A model generated the notes under the pieces. It was not told where the DNA came from, did not search any database, and worked only from the letters and a program-made list of their open reading frames with translations. A DNA stretch of 32,758 nucleotides from a bacterium (GTDB lineage: Bacteria; Bdellovibrionota; Bacteriovoracia; Bacteriovoracales; Bacteriovoracaceae). This document shows, one piece after another, positions 11,708 to 18,666 of this stretch. Within the stretch, counting starts at the first letter, position 1; each line of letters starts with the position of its first letter. A program made the translations under genes and the position numbers. The stretch covers positions 132,677 to 165,434 of the forward strand of contig JAUHVL010000006.1 of assembly GCA_030425045.1 (NCBI GenBank), in the 5' to 3' direction.

Positions 11708-11736
11708 AGAGTACTGAGAATGGCCAGTATTGTCAA
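11708..11736 (-). promoter_or_regulatory. Probable sigma70 promoter of tig
   Basis: On the minus strand a perfect -35 TTGACA (11736-11731) is followed after 17 bases by TACTCT (11713-11708), a weak -10. A start near 11700 would give a leader of about 40 bases to the tig ATG. The -35 overlaps the truA stop codon. Confidence 0.5.
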
Positions 11737-12506
11737 TAAACTACTTCAACTAGATATAGCCCATGTGCCGGCGCAACCGGACCTATTTTTAAGTCGGTTT
11801 TTGCCTCGAGTGATTCAATGAAATGCTCATATGGACAGTGCTCACGTGCAACAGAAAATAAGGCCCCTACCATCAATCTTACCATTTGCTTCAGAAAACC
11901 ATTACCCTCAACAGAAAAAAGCCAGTAACCTGGTAAAAATGGCCTCCAGAACTGATCAGTATCAACATACTTAAGCTCACACTTAAAAATTTCTCTAACT
12001 GTTGAATTTACAGGAGTCCCCGTATTCATAAAGTTTTTAAAATTATGCTCTCCGACAAAAGCATCACAAACCTTTTGGGCTAAAGTGATGTCGAACTTAT
12101 GGGGGTGAGTAGCCAACATATGTCTCAAATGGGGAGGGCAAGAGTCATGCCCCAGAACAAACCTGTAGTCATATCTTTTCTTGGAAGCGGAATAAACAGG
12201 GTGAAAATCCTCTTCACAAGGTTCTATTTTTTGAATTTTGATATCAGTGGGTAGCAGTGAATTTAAGCCCTTTTGAAGGTTATCAATTGGAATTTCCTTA
12301 GGTGTAGTCAACTTCACCACTTGCGCTAACGCATGAACCCCAGTATCAGTTCTCCCGCTACCAATAACTTTAATATTTTTTGAGTCGAATATTTTTTCAG
12401 CACATTCAATGAGCGAACCCTGAATAGTCGGCCTTCCCCCTGGTTGAACCTGCCAACCTTGGTAGTTAGTTCCATCATAAGATAATGTACATTTATAATT
12501 AATCAT
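11733..12506 (-). CDS. truA: tRNA pseudouridine synthase A
   Basis: A 257-residue enzyme that converts uridines 38-40 in the tRNA anticodon arm to pseudouridine. The catalytic motif GSGRTDTGVHA is intact with nucleophile Asp54. The early YDGTNYQGWQ and the late FLKQMVRLMVG blocks also match the family. The ATG overlaps the stop of the preceding outer-membrane candidate by one base (TAATG), so translation is coupled. It is the last gene of the long minus-strand run before tig. Confidence 0.96.
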   Translation of the reverse strand: MINYKCTLSYDGTNYQGWQVQPGGRPTIQGSLIECAEKIFDSKNIKVIGSGRTDTGVHALAQVVKLTTPKEIPIDNLQKGLNSLLPTDIKIQKIEPCEEDFHPVYSASKKRYDYRFVLGHDSCPPHLRHMLATHPHKFDITLAQKVCDAFVGEHNFKNFMNTGTPVNSTVREIFKCELKYVDTDQFWRPFLPGYWLFSVEGNGFLKQMVRLMVGALFSVAREHCPYEHFIESLEAKTDLKIGPVAPAHGLYLVEVVY

Positions 12507-13483
12507 TAAAGATAATCAAAAGTGAAGCCTGCACCTATTGAAGATCCAGAAATAGATATTTCGTCCTGAAAGTTTTCATAAGTTTGATGTCTCATCATGA
12601 CATTTAAGTAATAGTTAGTAATTTTATAATCACTAAATAAGTTAAACATACTACTTGAAAAAATATTACCTAAACTTATCTTCAGCTTAGCCGTTGCAAA
12701 ATATCCCGGGCTAACCTGCCTACGGTACTTATATTTTTCACCAGATTCTTTATCGTCTCTATTTTGATAAAGTCCCATAGCAGATGGACCGCCAGATACT
12801 GCGAGGTTCAAAAATCTCCCAAGTGGTAGCTCCATAGTCAAAGAAAAATCTAGAGGAAGAGACCATAAAGTAAAAGTTGTATCACTTTCAGACTGTGAAG
12901 TTGAAAAGGAGCCCTTACCTTTACTCATTCCCATACCTAAGTTGAATCCATAGGCAAAGTCGAAAAAGCCTCGATAAAAATAGCGATCCATACCGAGCTG
13001 AACTCCACCATATCTATTAGCACCTGAGCTTTGTTCAAAAGTTTTTCTGTATATGCCTCGACTATCCGTTATTTCATAATCGTCACTGATGTAACTAAAC
13101 GATAACGCCCAAGTTCCTTTTCTATAAATATTTTTAAAAATATCTCTATTATTCGTTTCAAGATAATTTTCTCTTTTATTAAAAGGCATTGTTACACCAA
13201 AGCCTCCAATAGAACTTTTTATCTCAGCTTTTTCTGCTTTACTACCAGGAACGTGAAAGGAGTCCGCTTCTTCATCGTCGTTTTTAAATTCAGTAATTTC
13301 TTTTTCTAAGTCTTTGGAAGCACCAGGAACAAAAGCACTCTCTCCACTTTCAATTGCTTCAATTTCACTAAAGTCTTTTTTCTGATCACCAAGGTATTGA
13401 CCAGCATCCTCAGCATGAATGGAACTTAAAATAAGAACAAGGAATATAAGTAAACTAGTTTTCTTCTTCCCACTCAAAAGCAT
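12506..13483 (-). CDS. Secreted protein, candidate outer-membrane beta-barrel
   Basis: About 325 residues with a signal peptide (basic GKKKTS, then LLIFLVLILSS, cleavage likely after IHA). A charged Glu/Asp/Ser-rich linker of ~80 residues contains a doubled phrase (FVPGASKDLEKE and FHVPGSKAEKAE). After that, roughly 220 residues alternate aromatic and polar positions and end in GAGFTFDYL, as in small beta-barrels. No named family is recognised. TTG 13489, GTG 13486 and ATG 13483 are consecutive in-frame starts; ATG 13483 suits the AGGAAAG about 10 bases upstream. The 5' end overlaps the pssA 3' end by ~30 bases and the stop overlaps truA, so it is embedded in the phospholipid and tRNA operon. 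Confidence 0.65.
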   Translation of the reverse strand: MLLSGKKKTSLLIFLVLILSSIHAEDAGQYLGDQKKDFSEIEAIESGESAFVPGASKDLEKEITEFKNDDEEADSFHVPGSKAEKAEIKSSIGGFGVTMPFNKRENYLETNNRDIFKNIYRKGTWALSFSYISDDYEITDSRGIYRKTFEQSSGANRYGGVQLGMDRYFYRGFFDFAYGFNLGMGMSKGKGSFSTSQSESDTTFTLWSLPLDFSLTMELPLGRFLNLAVSGGPSAMGLYQNRDDKESGEKYKYRRQVSPGYFATAKLKISLGNIFSSSMFNLFSDYKITNYYLNVMMRHQTYENFQDEISISGSSIGAGFTFDYL

Positions 13484-14189
13484 CACCAAATTCTTTCCTA
13501 CGTTTCAAATAAACTGTTAGTGAAATGATAACATACAAATTCATAAAAACTAATGTCATGATTTTGTAGTAGGAAAACAAAAGAGCAGCAGCAACAATAC
13601 CAACAAAAAATCCAAATCTTTTATGTCTTTCAGCGAAGCTTGAATCTTTAAATGAGAAAAATGGTATCGTTGTCACCATAAGAATACTGTAAAGAAAGAC
13701 ATAAATTACCGATATAAAAGGAAAGGCATCAAACTCAGGAAATTTTTCAAAGAAAAAAACAAAACCGACGATTGCAGTGGCAGCACCGGGTATTGGTAAC
13801 CCCTGAAAAAAATCATTTCTTATATTTTTAATATTAGCATTAAAGCGAGCAAGCCTGAGTGCACCGCACAATATATAAATAAAGGCCACGACCGCGCCGA
13901 GCTTATTATAAAAAACTAAATATTTTTTGAACATCAAAATGGCAGGGGCCATTCCAAAGGAAATCAGATCACTCATAGAATCAAACTGCTCTCCAAACTG
14001 AGAAGATGTTCCCGTCATTCTAGCAACTCTTCCATCAACAGAATCAAAAATTGCTCCCAATATTAAAATCATACAAGCATCATCAAATTTCCCCTGAAGA
14101 GAAAAAACAATTGAGGCAAAGCCACATGCCATATTCAAAGCTGTAAAAATATTGGGAAGAAAAAATGCTAGTTTTTTAGAGTTTTGCAA
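13455..14189 (-). CDS. pssA: CDP-diacylglycerol-serine O-phosphatidyltransferase
   Basis: A 244-residue polytopic membrane enzyme that makes phosphatidylserine from CDP-diacylglycerol and serine. The full CDP-alcohol phosphotransferase motif is present: D49-x2-D52-G53-x2-A56-R57-x8-G66-x3-D70-x3-D74. The N-terminal LPNIFTALNMACGF and the motif spacing match the Bacillus-type PssA. The start is TTG with AGG-rich bases about 8 upstream, 7 bases after the psd-like stop. The pairing pssA-psd is common, but here the decarboxylase partner looks catalytically dead, so the fate of the phosphatidylserine is a real question. Confidence 0.93.
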   Translation of the reverse strand: MQNSKKLAFFLPNIFTALNMACGFASIVFSLQGKFDDACMILILGAIFDSVDGRVARMTGTSSQFGEQFDSMSDLISFGMAPAILMFKKYLVFYNKLGAVVAFIYILCGALRLARFNANIKNIRNDFFQGLPIPGAATAIVGFVFFFEKFPEFDAFPFISVIYVFLYSILMVTTIPFFSFKDSSFAERHKRFGFFVGIVAAALLFSYYKIMTLVFMNLYVIISLTVYLKRRKEFGDAFEWEEEN

Positions 14190-14196
14190 ACTGAAC

Positions 14197-14871
14197 CTAC
14201 CTATTTTCTATCGTGCCAGCGATCAGCGTTTCACCCGACTCTACACTTTGGCCTTCTTGAACGAGAATCTCAAAATTCTCTGGAAAGTAAAAATGCAATG
14301 TTCCTCCAAAGGGAAAATAGCCAATATTAGCGACATTTTTCCCACGATCTCCAGGCATAACATAAATATGAGGAGACATACCTAAAGGACAATTCGTAAA
14401 GTGTAATCCCAAAGTACCGTCTTGAATAGTTTCAAGCTGTAAGTAATACCCAGGTGGAATCTCACCTCCAAAGGAAATCGGCTTTGGCCATCTATATCTA
14501 AAGTTTGGTTTCCCAGCTTTATAAATAAGATCTTTTACTTCTGCTGTTTTCGGTAGATTGATACCAAACTCTTTCCACCAAGGAATAACAATCCTTATCT
14601 CACTTAAACTAGAACCAAAAACATCATGATTTATATTTTTTCTAATCGAAGTAACTGTTCCATTTACGGGAGAGAATAACACCTCATCTCGTTTGCCTTT
14701 ATCCTCTTTAAAAAAATGGTTAAATTTTCTAAAAATTAAAATAAGGGCGACATGAATAATAAAGAATAAAAAGAAAAAGGCACCCGAAAGAAAAATCATC
14801 AAGAATAAAGCAATTACCCAAAACCATACATGAAATCTAAATGGTAAATATGTTCTATAAAACCTATTCAT
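14197..14871 (-). CDS. Phosphatidylserine decarboxylase homologue lacking the catalytic residues
   Basis: A 224-residue protein with the fold landmarks of the short Psd type: two N-terminal hydrophobic segments (~12-48), SPVNGTVTSI (67-76), IVIPWWKEFGINLP, FGGTLHFYFP (188-197) and EGQSVESGETLIAG (206-219). In active Psd the chain self-cleaves at G-S-[ST], and the serine becomes the pyruvoyl cofactor. Here the codons read GGA GGA ACA, giving G189-G190-T191, so that serine is missing. The aspartate of the usual SPxDG is Asn70, and the usual histidine of the DxH block aligns with Gly103. The frame is intact, so it is a probable pseudoenzyme rather than a pseudogene. It overlaps tsaB by 8 bases and is followed after 7 bases by pssA. 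A lipid-binding or PssA-regulating role is possible; a divergent active enzyme is less likely. Confidence 0.75.
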   Translation of the reverse strand: MNRFYRTYLPFRFHVWFWVIALFLMIFLSGAFFFLFFIIHVALILIFRKFNHFFKEDKGKRDEVLFSPVNGTVTSIRKNINHDVFGSSLSEIRIVIPWWKEFGINLPKTAEVKDLIYKAGKPNFRYRWPKPISFGGEIPPGYYLQLETIQDGTLGLHFTNCPLGMSPHIYVMPGDRGKNVANIGYFPFGGTLHFYFPENFEILVQEGQSVESGETLIAGTIENR

Positions 14872-15466
14872 TCTTTTTCTTTTTTAATTTAAATTCATTT
14901 TCAGGTAGTCGGTAATAATTTAGCTGTAATGCCTTTTCATTTTTTTCAATTTCTGAAAATACTTTTTTTGGATTCTCATAAATCATATTTACAGTGATAT
15001 GTTTTTCAGACTGTACTAATTCAGTATCATGACTAAATGAAAATTCTGATACCTTATTATTTTCTACGGAAAGTAATTCAGTCTGTTCTTCATCCCCTTC
15101 CCAAGCGTAAATAAACATTTCACCTTTATAGGCATTGGCAACCCACTTGCCTGAGTTAATGTCACAAAAACGAGGAATTTGATAATGATAAAATGAGCGA
15201 GTTTTTATCCCCTGCCACTCCAAAAGCCTTGCAATTCCTTCACTAACTCTCATACCAGTATAACTTCCCGGTCCTGAGCAATAAAATAAAGTATCAACGC
15301 TCTCTAGCTTCAAATTATTTTTCTCTAATGACTCGTAAAGCATAGAATGAATTTTAGAAGCACTTTTTTTATTTACGTGATGTATATAATCGATCCAATT
15401 GTAGTCTTCATCTAATAGACCAATTGTAATATTTAAACTCGTATCTAAAAAAATTGAATAACTCAT
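14864..15466 (-). CDS. tsaB: tRNA threonylcarbamoyladenosine biosynthesis protein TsaB
   Basis: About 200 residues of the ASKHA fold. It starts MSYSIFLDTS, the standard N-terminal strand, and contains the diagnostic GPGSYTGMRVSEGIA. TsaB has no catalysis of its own; it scaffolds TsaD and TsaE in making the t6A modification next to the tRNA anticodon. I place the start at ATG 15466 because family proteins begin right at this strand; a GTG at 15502 would add 12 residues. The C-terminal third is diverged and lysine-rich at the end. The gene lies 9-45 bases after rseP and overlaps the psd-like gene by 8 bases. Confidence 0.9.
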   Translation of the reverse strand: MSYSIFLDTSLNITIGLLDEDYNWIDYIHHVNKKSASKIHSMLYESLEKNNLKLESVDTLFYCSGPGSYTGMRVSEGIARLLEWQGIKTRSFYHYQIPRFCDINSGKWVANAYKGEMFIYAWEGDEEQTELLSVENNKVSEFSFSHDTELVQSEKHITVNMIYENPKKVFSEIEKNEKALQLNYYRLPENEFKLKKKKNE

Positions 15467-15511
15467 AATGAATACCGTCTCTATCTGAGCAAGGAAGCTC
15501 ACGGCCTCATG

Positions 15512-17068
15512 CTAAAAGAAGTGACTAACGTCGTTATATATGGCACCAACCATTAACATAAGTAAAACTGAAAGGCCAAACTGCTGGGCGACTTCCATTT
15601 TTCTTCTCGATAAAGGTCCACCATTTATTAATTCTAAGAAAATAAAGAGAATGTGCCCACCATCTAGAACTGGAATAGGAAAGAGATTAATAATACCAAG
15701 GTGGATTGAAATCAATGCCATCAACTTAAAAAAGTTTGAAATGCTGGTGTTAAAAGAATCAGAGGCAACTTTCCCAATGGCCAAGGGACCACCTATATTT
15801 TTTAACGACGACTCTCCAACAATTAACTTCTTGAAGGATACAAATATTTTATCAACGGTATCAATAGACCTCGTAACAGCACCAGTTGTCGATCCCCAAA
15901 ATCCTCTTGATCCTGTTTCGTATTGCTTTATTGGTAAAAACTCTCCATTTGAGTAAACCCCAATTAATTTTAACTTTTCTCCAGCTATACTTTTCACTTC
16001 TGGCTTTAACGTTAAACTCATTAATTTTCCAGATCTCCAAAGCTCAATTGAAACAGTATCCCCGGTGGTATCTTGTAAAGTGTTTCTTAAGTCTTCAAAA
16101 CTAAAAATATTTGTACCATTTAAAGACTTTAAGATGTCACCTTCTTTTATTCCAGCTTCTTGAGCAGGTGAATTTGGTGTTGCATTTCTCACAACTAAAT
16201 CTAACGTTCTTAAATTATTTTCACCAAGGAACCTATAAAATGATTCAATATCTCCGTAGCTTCCTGAGAACTCTTTAAAAAGCTCTCCCGCTTTTCTTTC
16301 CTTTCCTGCTATGAACTCAAATAAGTACAAACCACTATACTGCTGACCAGTAGTAAACATCTCTTCTAGTGAAGTCTCAAAAGAAGCCGTTTCTTTATTT
16401 GTTGAAAGAATATATTTCTTTCCAGACTCACTTATTAAAATTGGAACCCTCATCACAGGAGGATACTTCATAAATTCTTTTAAGAAGTCGTCACTGTCTT
16501 TATTGATAGTCAGAACCATTTTTGAGTCATTCCTCATGACTGTTAATGTTTCAATTTGACTCTTTGTAGACAGAACCATATCTGTAGGTCCACTTATCAC
16601 TTCACCATTCACTCTTCGAATGACATCACCTGTACGTAAACCTTTCTCATATAGAACTGATTCTTTTTTTAATAATCCAACTTTAACTTCTGGAACTCTC
16701 TCTCCCACAAAAAGAAGTCCCCAGAATAAAAAGTAAGCCAAGATAAAGTTTGCAAGTGGCCCACCCATTACAATCCAAAAACGTTGCCATTTATTTTTGA
16801 AAGTGAAGCTATATTTTCTTTCTTCTTCGGGAACTTCATCTTTTCGAAGTGGGTCATCTCCATACATTTTCACATACCCACCTAAGGGTATTAATGAAAT
16901 GGCATAAACAGTATCACCTCTTTTGAAATTAAAAATTTTAGGACCAAAACCAATAGAAAATACTTCAACTCTTACGCCAAAGAGCCTGGCAAATAAGAAA
17001 TGTCCTAATTCATGAAAAAAGACGAGGGGACCAAGGAATAATACAAAAATAGCAATTTTTTCTAACAT
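15512..17068 (-). CDS. rseP: Site-2 intramembrane metalloprotease RseP
   Basis: A 518-residue M50 protease of the inner membrane. Zinc ligands are HELGH (His19, Glu20, His23) in the first helix and the LDGGH motif (Asp469) in a C-terminal helix. Two PDZ domains lie between: one around 125-200 (includes GLRTGDVIRRVNGE) and one around 295-365 (AGIKEGDILKSLNG). In E. coli RseP cuts RseA to release sigmaE, and clears signal peptides. At 518 residues it is longer than the ~450 of E. coli, with extra sequence between the PDZ domains. It sits 12 bases after cdsA, the usual order. Confidence 0.95.
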   Translation of the reverse strand: MLEKIAIFVLFLGPLVFFHELGHFLFARLFGVRVEVFSIGFGPKIFNFKRGDTVYAISLIPLGGYVKMYGDDPLRKDEVPEEERKYSFTFKNKWQRFWIVMGGPLANFILAYFLFWGLLFVGERVPEVKVGLLKKESVLYEKGLRTGDVIRRVNGEVISGPTDMVLSTKSQIETLTVMRNDSKMVLTINKDSDDFLKEFMKYPPVMRVPILISESGKKYILSTNKETASFETSLEEMFTTGQQYSGLYLFEFIAGKERKAGELFKEFSGSYGDIESFYRFLGENNLRTLDLVVRNATPNSPAQEAGIKEGDILKSLNGTNIFSFEDLRNTLQDTTGDTVSIELWRSGKLMSLTLKPEVKSIAGEKLKLIGVYSNGEFLPIKQYETGSRGFWGSTTGAVTRSIDTVDKIFVSFKKLIVGESSLKNIGGPLAIGKVASDSFNTSISNFFKLMALISIHLGIINLFPIPVLDGGHILFIFLELINGGPLSRRKMEVAQQFGLSVLLMLMVGAIYNDVSHFF

Positions 17069-17080
17069 AATATTCTATAA

Positions 17081-17905
17081 TTAAGAGTAATAAAAATTTA
17101 CCATAATTACGAAAAAAGGAGAAAGGAAAAGTAAACTATCAAGACGATCATAAACCCCACCGTGACCAGGAATTAGTCCAGAGGCATCTTTAACATCAGT
17201 TTGTCTTTTTATCTTAGATTGAATCAAGTCTCCAAACTGAGAAAGAATACCTAGCAATGAAAACAAAATGATCAGATATGGAGAAATATCACCAACAAAA
17301 TAATTCCAAGCCAAAGAACCTAGTATACTTGAGCACAAAGCACCACCAATCAATCCTTCAATCGTTTTCTTAGGACTTACTTTTTCCCATAGTTTTCTTT
17401 TGCCAAACTTTTTACCAAAGAACCAAGCACCGGTATCCATTCCAAAATTAATCAAAAGCATAATGAAAATTAGAGATCTCCAATTTTCATAACGATACAG
17501 TAAGGAAATATTCAGCCATGGCAGTAAAACCATAATTGCAATCAAAAAAGGAACCCACTCTCTTACCGATTTAATTAGATTAGACTTAATATCGATAAAA
17601 AATAAGTAAGCTAATAAGACTATATTCACGGCTAAGGCGGTATACATAGTCACTTCACTAGGAATCGTTAAGAACCTTGAAAAATTATAGACCAAATATG
17701 GTGCAACAAAGATCCCTTGAGTGACAAAGTAATAAACCTCTAATCTATTTCTACTCAGAATATTACAATAAACCTCATCAATAATGAGAACACCAAAACA
17801 TAACATCATCATTGTTAATGAAGCAGTACCCCAGTAAATACAAAAGAAGACTATGGCCATTAAGACAAATGCTGATAATATTCTTTTCTTTGTTTCAGAC
17901 GACAC
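17081..17905 (-). CDS. cdsA: Phosphatidate cytidylyltransferase (housekeeping)
   Basis: A 274-residue polytopic membrane enzyme that makes CDP-diacylglycerol, the precursor of all phospholipids. The CDS signature SKIKRQTDVKD followed by LIPGHGGVYDRLDSL (230-258) is complete, and DTGAWFFGKKFGKR with SPKKTIEG (157-184) precedes it. The start is GTG overlapping the uppS stop as TAGTG, with AAGGT about 8 bases upstream. Its place between uppS and rseP is the standard bacterial order. It differs from the 314-residue paralogue at 6001, which belongs to the accessory lipid block. Confidence 0.96.
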   Translation of the reverse strand: MSSETKKRILSAFVLMAIVFFCIYWGTASLTMMMLCFGVLIIDEVYCNILSRNRLEVYYFVTQGIFVAPYLVYNFSRFLTIPSEVTMYTALAVNIVLLAYLFFIDIKSNLIKSVREWVPFLIAIMVLLPWLNISLLYRYENWRSLIFIMLLINFGMDTGAWFFGKKFGKRKLWEKVSPKKTIEGLIGGALCSSILGSLAWNYFVGDISPYLIILFSLLGILSQFGDLIQSKIKRQTDVKDASGLIPGHGGVYDRLDSLLFLSPFFVIMVNFYYS

Positions 17906-18666
17906 TACTGATTGACCTTAGAGTGGGATGAATCTTTATTCTTTTTTGCCCAAAGAGATGAAATTTTAAAGCCCTCACACTCTTTTACGTAACCAAAACG
18001 TCTTTCTCTAGTCGTTACTTTTTCAATAATTTCACCAAACTCTTTTCTTGAGAAATCAGGCCAAGGCGTTTCTGTAAAATAAAGTTCAGCATAAGCAACT
18101 TGCCACAATAGAAAGTTAGAGATTCTTTGATCTCCTCCCGTTCTAATAAGTAAATCAACGTCCCCAAGCTCTGGTTGATATAAATATTTAGAGAAGTCCT
18201 CTTCAGTTACGTCTCTATCCTTAACTTCTTCCCTTAAGCGGTTAACGGTATCAATAATTTCAGAGCGACCACCATAACCAAAAGCAAAAGTTAATTTTAA
18301 ACCATTTAAATCTTTAGTTTCGTTTTCTAAGTCTTTAATAATTTTTTTAGTTTCTTCTGGTAAACCATCTAGTTTACCCATAACTTTAAAACGAATATTA
18401 TTATCGATGATTCTTTTTTTCTCTTTGAGCAAGAACTTTTTTAGTAAAGAGAAAAGTGTATTTATTTCTTGTAGTGGACGACTCCAATTTTCCGTTGAAA
18501 AGGCATATAGAGTTAAAGCTTCAATACCTCTATCATCTGCCTCTTCAACGATATCCGAAACAATCGAAGAGCCTCTAACATGTCCCCATACACGTTGACG
18601 TGATCGGCCCTCAGCCCATCTACCGTTTCCATCCATAATAATGGCAACATGTTTAATTGAAGACAT
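17905..18666 (-). CDS. uppS: Undecaprenyl diphosphate synthase (cis-prenyltransferase)
   Basis: A 253-residue cytoplasmic enzyme that extends farnesyl diphosphate to undecaprenyl diphosphate, the carrier for peptidoglycan and O-antigen. Conserved regions are all present: IMDGNGRWA with catalytic Asp12, GHVRGS, LYAFSTENWSRP, and near the end LLIRTGGDQRISNFLLWQ with ELYFTETPWPDF. It lies 7 bases after frr and overlaps cdsA by one base. Confidence 0.97.
   Translation of the reverse strand: MSSIKHVAIIMDGNGRWAEGRSRQRVWGHVRGSSIVSDIVEEADDRGIEALTLYAFSTENWSRPLQEINTLFSLLKKFLLKEKKRIIDNNIRFKVMGKLDGLPEETKKIIKDLENETKDLNGLKLTFAFGYGGRSEIIDTVNRLREEVKDRDVTEEDFSKYLYQPELGDVDLLIRTGGDQRISNFLLWQVAYAELYFTETPWPDFSRKEFGEIIEKVTTRERRFGYVKECEGFKISSLWAKKNKDSSHSKVNQ

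Follow-up and report, generated by a model that had tools for sequence, protein, structure and literature searches.

The window, i.e. the whole 32,758-bp stretch of DNA that was analysed, carries upstream of pssA a gene recognizable as a phosphatidylserine decarboxylase (Psd) homologue, in which a glycine codon stands where the self-cleavage serine is expected. This raises the question of why the gene is kept beside pssA, and which enzyme supplies phosphatidylethanolamine (PE).

The psdX gene and its former active site

The gene, here called psdX (14197–14871, minus strand), is an intact ORF, as the first-pass annotation had stated, which starts with ATG and encodes 224 amino acids. On the basis of its ORF, its Pfam and NCBIfam matches and its orthologues, the product was classified as a catalytically dead homologue of the short (type II) Psd. 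It matched PF02666 at 29.9 bits, above the curated cut-off for family-level similarity (Pfam gathering score 22), with the best stretch at residues 171–218, while its best NCBIfam matches were type II Psd models, for which the score of 41.5 bits did not reach the equivalog cut-off of 225.

Alignment and codon reading placed Gly189-Gly190 (GGA GGA, 14302–14307, minus strand) at the position of the Gly|Ser self-cleavage site, with codon 190 at 14302–14304 and codon 189 at 14305–14307, and Asn70 (AAT, 14662–14664, minus strand) at that of the SPxDG aspartate; both substitutions had been read correctly in the first-pass annotation. The histidine had been assigned one residue off, at Gly103, whereas alignment with 20 catalytic type II Psds showed that the invariant histidine of the VHVNRxP motif (E. 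coli His144, according to an excerpt of PMC7952604) aligns with Phe102 (14566–14568, minus strand). The residues used by E. coli Psd are D90/D142-H144-S254 (same excerpt, PMC7952604); the position of Asp142 is occupied by Lys100 in psdX in the alignment with the 20 catalytic enzymes, and that of His147 by Asn105. The latter position has Arg in 20/20 catalytic type II Psds and also in an archaeal type II enzyme, as given in an excerpt of PMC9385802. Hence, psdX of the window has neither the Gly-Ser self-cleavage site nor the Asp and His of the triad of an active Psd; the changes affect the serine as well as each of the two His and the two Asp positions. The loss of the serine is the decisive change; judging from the sequence, no pyruvoyl group could be formed by the known route.

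Two N-terminal membrane helices, residues 11–27 and 30–49 (14725–14841, minus strand), were predicted from the model and from hydropathy. The AlphaFold2 model, built with 23 sequences, consisted of two N-terminal helices and a beta domain with a mean pLDDT of 74. Foldseek with this model returned nothing at E ≤ 0.001, with Psd absent from the best 50 matches, and a sequence-profile search of solved structures found no Psd. VIA-align placed EIIA-Glc first (1gla_F, Z 10.4, 3.4 Å, 134 residues), followed by E. coli Psd (7cnx_C, Z 8.1, 2.9 Å, 125 residues), a weak match scoring lower than EIIA-Glc, and by six further Psd/PsiD entries at Z 6.7–7.9. The structural match to Psd stopped at psdX residue 188, corresponding to E. 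coli Psd residue 253, just before the pyruvoyl group. The predicted model is thus consistent, if weakly, with assignment of psdX to the Psd fold, a match to a solved Psd having been found.

Conservation among psdX sequences peaked around the former active site, with 2.45 bits for residues 184–197, 2.30 for 65–73, 2.04 for 166–183 and 1.98 for 98–110, as compared with 0.92–1.68 bits elsewhere. Pro68, Gly71, Pro107, Gly174, Gly184 and Gly189 were retained, in keeping with the initial remark that the landmarks of the fold persist. Residues conserved in at least 90% of catalytic type II Psds and lost in psdX included Asn104, Glu140, Arg165 and Arg166. Seventeen columns had switched from one common residue to another, including S190G, V103G and I167P; 7 of the 17 fell in the former active-site segments, an enrichment that was not significant (P 0.07).

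Orthologues, selection and gene order in the class

Homologues of psdX were found in 35 of 59 genomes (own genome and relatives) by protein search, and a psdX profile of 25 rows had matches in 43 of the 59. In a set of 116 class genomes, all of one family and at least 80% complete, the same profile matched 109, including G101, in which the match was a canonical Psd elsewhere and not psdX. Named relatives were matched with a 7-row alignment at 24 loci, whose records carry the names Bacteriovorax, Halobacteriovorax, Bacteriovoracaceae or broader ones; the named relatives of these bacteria include predators.

Among the 112 orthologues, from 112 class genomes, residue 190 was Gly in 107, Ala in 1 and Ser in 2, and was not alignable in 2 (L244 of G003, an orthologue by position scoring 18.5 bits, and L250 of G068, cut by the contig end); L243 of G101, the canonical Psd with neither tsaB nor pssA beside it, was left out of the residue counts. 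Both Ser190 cases occurred in broken motifs (FNS in L125 and AFS in L126), with neither the preceding Gly nor His102. Asp70 was kept in 4/112 and His102 in 6/112, and Asp70, His102 and Ser190 together in 0/112. Asp, His, Gly and Ser were all kept in 20/20 catalytic type II Psds (L089–L091, L123 and L261–L276) that were examined from elsewhere in the phylum, outside this class. Because the same Gly is present in 107/112 class orthologues, its occurrence is far beyond chance; the alignment of relatives proposed at the outset thus gave a conserved Gly, and a sequencing error at codon 190 was ruled out.

It was also noticed that psdX of G103 (L206, G103:C36:2576–3188) contains stop codons, by frameshift, assembly error or true loss, G103 being the one genome where both psdX pieces carry stops. 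The extra canonical Psd of G101 (G101:C394:6052–6690) is short and scored 138 bits, and G101 belongs to the same genus as G025, which has lost psdX. In addition, weaker PF02666 matches were located in ORFs of 517–552 aa in G019 (C11:112490–113155), G025 (C11:16936–17439) and G101 (C174:4310–4582), two of these genomes being known to be without psdX.

Pairwise dN/dS of psdX was calculated in four genera for pairs with dS between 0.1 and 2; the medians were 0.200 (44 pairs), 0.081 (33), 0.192 (4) and 0.136 (6), and the highest single value was 0.443. The corresponding medians were 0.052–0.089 for pssA and 0.119–0.248 for tsaB, and psdX is therefore constrained about as much as TsaB. On a fixed tree psdX was the fastest of the ten genes compared, with 36.8 substitutions per site in total versus 13.7 for pssA; tig, missing in two genomes, was omitted from this branch-length comparison and included in the background alignment. 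Loss of the catalytic residues (0/112 triads) is thus combined with purifying selection (medians 0.081–0.200), the two marks of a pseudoenzyme. A decaying gene was ruled out by the dN/dS values and the intact frames. The sequences bear out the initial suggestion of a pseudoenzyme, and psdX is almost certainly one conserved throughout the lineage.

In the window, psdX is preceded on the minus strand by uppS (17905–18666), cdsA for phosphatidate cytidylyltransferase, whose product is the PssA substrate (17081–17905), rseP for an M50 peptidase with PDZ domains (15512–17068), and a tsaB-like gene (14864–15502) overlapping the psdX start by 8 bases. It is followed by pssA (13455–14189), which encodes CDP-diacylglycerol--serine O-phosphatidyltransferase with an intact CAPT motif and has a TTG start 7 bases past the psdX stop, and downstream (11733–13489) by an outer-membrane beta-barrel gene (12506–13489) and truA (11733–12506). 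The coupling to tsaB and pssA noted from the window alone therefore stands. Genomes of the class share the arrangement uppS-cdsA-rseP-tsaB-psdX-pssA-(omp)-truA-tig, with tsaB before psdX in 112/112 loci and pssA directly after it in 109/112. The remaining three have pssA as well: in G138 and G068 it was hidden by a contig break, and in G132 some 1.5 kb of inserted DNA, with a toxin-antitoxin-like pair in opposite orientation, separates psdX from the first pssA codons at the contig end. By eye, from the translation, this opposite-strand pair (L235:375–943, G132:C145) was named MazE/MazF-like. The contig begins 9.3–9.8 kb upstream of psdX in about 30 genomes (e.g. G016:C100, G033:C184 and G014:C2), suggesting that a repeat, perhaps an rRNA operon, occupies a constant upstream place.

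Four genomes (G019, G025, G028 and G029) had cleanly lost psdX, with tsaB abutting pssA, and G003 had a very divergent ORF at its place; losses were counted without G011, G101 and G134, the tsaB-pssA place not being seen in the latter two. Because of these four clean losses psdX is dispensable, and since tsaB and pssA abut there, PssA can work without it. The CAPT motif, which we take to be that of PssA, was intact in 113/113 full-length copies.

In genomes of other classes, a catalytic psd was located directly before pssA in 8/8 loci examined, and the retrieved stretch also contained truA in 7/8. An unrooted FastTree analysis split 27 psdX and 20 catalytic sequences into two groups (support 1.00, branch 1.24). 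Because both forms occupy the same psd-pssA place, psdX would most simply be a direct vertical descendant of the operonic catalytic type II psd. Replacement by a gene from elsewhere found no support, place and neighbours being the same as those of the catalytic psd of sister classes.

A separate type I decarboxylase

PE had been proposed to come possibly from another Psd or another route, with a search for a second psd carrying GS[ST] as the check. Such a gene was found in the own genome: a type I Psd of 299 aa (L001, G000:C86:61663–62217) on the same contig, about 85 kb away, carrying DYHRFH and FGGST. The possibility that the genome has no other Psd was thereby ruled out. Strong type I matches were present in 112/116 class genomes (G031, whose sole match was psdX, excluded), and HxxH and Ser were kept in 31/31 type I loci looked at. 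The PE supply is explained by this separate enzyme, present in the own genome and in the 112 class genomes. These loci (L001:1426–2325 and L033–L062), some of them outside the class, have Glu at the place of E. coli Asp90 (AEAR, CEAR) in 27/31 cases.

No convincing type I Psd was found in G031, G077, G105 and G133, even when they were searched with the type I protein of the own genome (G105 gave a match at E 0.02 only); these genomes, which carry psdX, are drafts of 84–92% completeness. None of the eight genomes from other classes that carry a catalytic type II Psd gave a second strong Psd match, and the type I and type II forms therefore tend to replace each other. This class is an exception, having kept the type II gene but not its activity. 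A Pfam match above the gathering score can thus label a dead protein a decarboxylase while another gene does the step.

Possible roles of psdX and comparison with known systems

The explanation that we favour starts from what the sequences show: an ancestral pair of type II psd and pssA, whose psd has remained catalytic elsewhere in the phylum, kept its place in this class, but here the psd lost its Ser, His and Asp in all genera sampled, and PE synthesis is left to a separate type I Psd. The product keeps a predicted membrane hairpin and Psd-like beta domain and is under purifying selection. We infer that psdX may carry out no chemistry of its own and, anchored in the membrane, may assist the neighbouring PssA as a partner, by holding it, by tuning it or by passing its product on. 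This whole course of events, in which a pseudoenzyme is retained for some non-catalytic task at the phosphatidylserine branch, most likely that of partnering PssA in the membrane, is given a chance falling just short of even. Partnership with PssA is the simplest role because psdX has been kept as a membrane-anchored protein before pssA; taken by itself it is a tentative assignment, possible and somewhat less than evenly probable. Rather doubtful is a further step: once decarboxylation had moved to the unlinked type I Psd, the whole class would have turned its operonic Psd into a dedicated non-catalytic subunit by which PssA is anchored or regulated, and which thereby governs how much CDP-diacylglycerol is channelled into PE.

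Control of PssA had been suggested in the first-pass annotation. The invariant gene order fits this suggestion, but the rates do not bear it out: covariation between psdX and pssA was not significant (rho 0.25, P 0.08, 51 branches; rho 0.08 on 27 tips from 27 genomes), although this rho was the highest of nine comparisons that included type I Psd and tsaB, none of them significant, and PssA of the four psdX-less genomes had no clear signature, with two weak columns only. The fixed place next to pssA can also be operon inertia, because tsaB, rseP and cdsA are equally fixed. By analogy, phospholipid enzymes can sit together: excerpts of PMC9385802 describe complexes of E. coli PssA with ACP, PlsB and YbgC, and place archaeal Ass as well as Asd at midcell. 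Such co-location may lend indirect support to the PssA-partner role. No report of a Psd-family pseudoenzyme or inactive Psd paralogue was found in the openly licensed literature searched, and the search for lipid papers on Bacteriovorax and Halobacteriovorax gave nothing useful. If the role at PssA is true, it would be a new way of controlling PE synthesis. The 112 orthologues, the 20 catalytic sister sequences and the four natural losses make the function of psdX directly testable.

An unlikely alternative to partnership with PssA is that psdX binds lipid or hands it on, with phosphatidylserine (PS) or PE sitting in the former catalytic pocket without being decarboxylated. The Pro and Gly landmarks from Pro68 to Gly189 are kept around the former site, which is the most conserved part of the protein, but they may be merely structural, and many other residues of catalytic type II Psds have been lost, such as Glu140, Arg165 and Arg166. 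Because these residues, together with Asn104 and others, are gone, PS held in the old way is less likely, and the initial proposal of PS binding, at least via the ancestral pocket, has lost ground.

It is also conceivable, though quite improbable, that psdX associates with the active type I Psd and aids its maturation or work, as the prozyme does in trypanosome AdoMet decarboxylase (analogy drawn from excerpts of PMC5201418 and PMC10211241). Both proteins co-occur in almost all genomes, and a dead paralogue that activates a decarboxylase has a precedent in the excerpt of PMC5201418. However, psdX would descend from type II and not from the type I enzyme that it would bind, its rate showed no covariation with that of type I Psd (rho 0.05), and each gene occurs without the other, psdX in the four draft genomes with no type I Psd detected and type I Psd in the four genomes that lost psdX.

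Very improbable is an evolutionary leftover, the frame being kept mainly since translation of psdX couples tsaB to pssA. The genes are tightly packed with overlaps, four genomes lost psdX cleanly with the operon unbroken, and psdX evolves fast; nevertheless, dN/dS of 0.08–0.20 and class-wide conserved amino acids indicate constraint on the protein, beyond that on the frame alone. A new catalytic activity in a rebuilt site, to which the new common residues (S190G, V103G, I167P and a PGDRG stretch) might point, is highly improbable, as the newly fixed residues are mostly Gly or Pro, no obvious acid, base or nucleophile is present beyond Asp175, Glu111 and the partly conserved Cys161, and the excess of switched columns there was not significant.

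psdX can be set beside several known systems. Like psdX, the trypanosome prozyme is a dead relative of a pyruvoyl decarboxylase kept beside a live enzyme; according to the excerpt of PMC5201418 it is a paralogue that was shown to form a dimer with its partner and to activate it, whereas psdX accompanies a live enzyme of another subfamily. EIIA-Glc, the best structural match of the psdX model, shares the beta fold only, with PF00358 at 15.8 bits versus a cut-off of 27.2. In E. coli Psd (7cnx), the beta chain up to the cleavage site aligns with the predicted beta domain of psdX; this enzyme (7cnx, 6l06) and the own type I Psd keep HxxH and Ser and have about 300 aa, unlike psdX. From the short, archaetidylserine-type type II Psd (PF02666/PRK05305/TIGR00164), psdX differs in having no self-cleavage Ser, His or Asp and in not reaching the NCBIfam equivalog cut-offs, whereas it shares the length, the two N-terminal hydrophobic helices, the Pro and Gly landmarks and the place before pssA.
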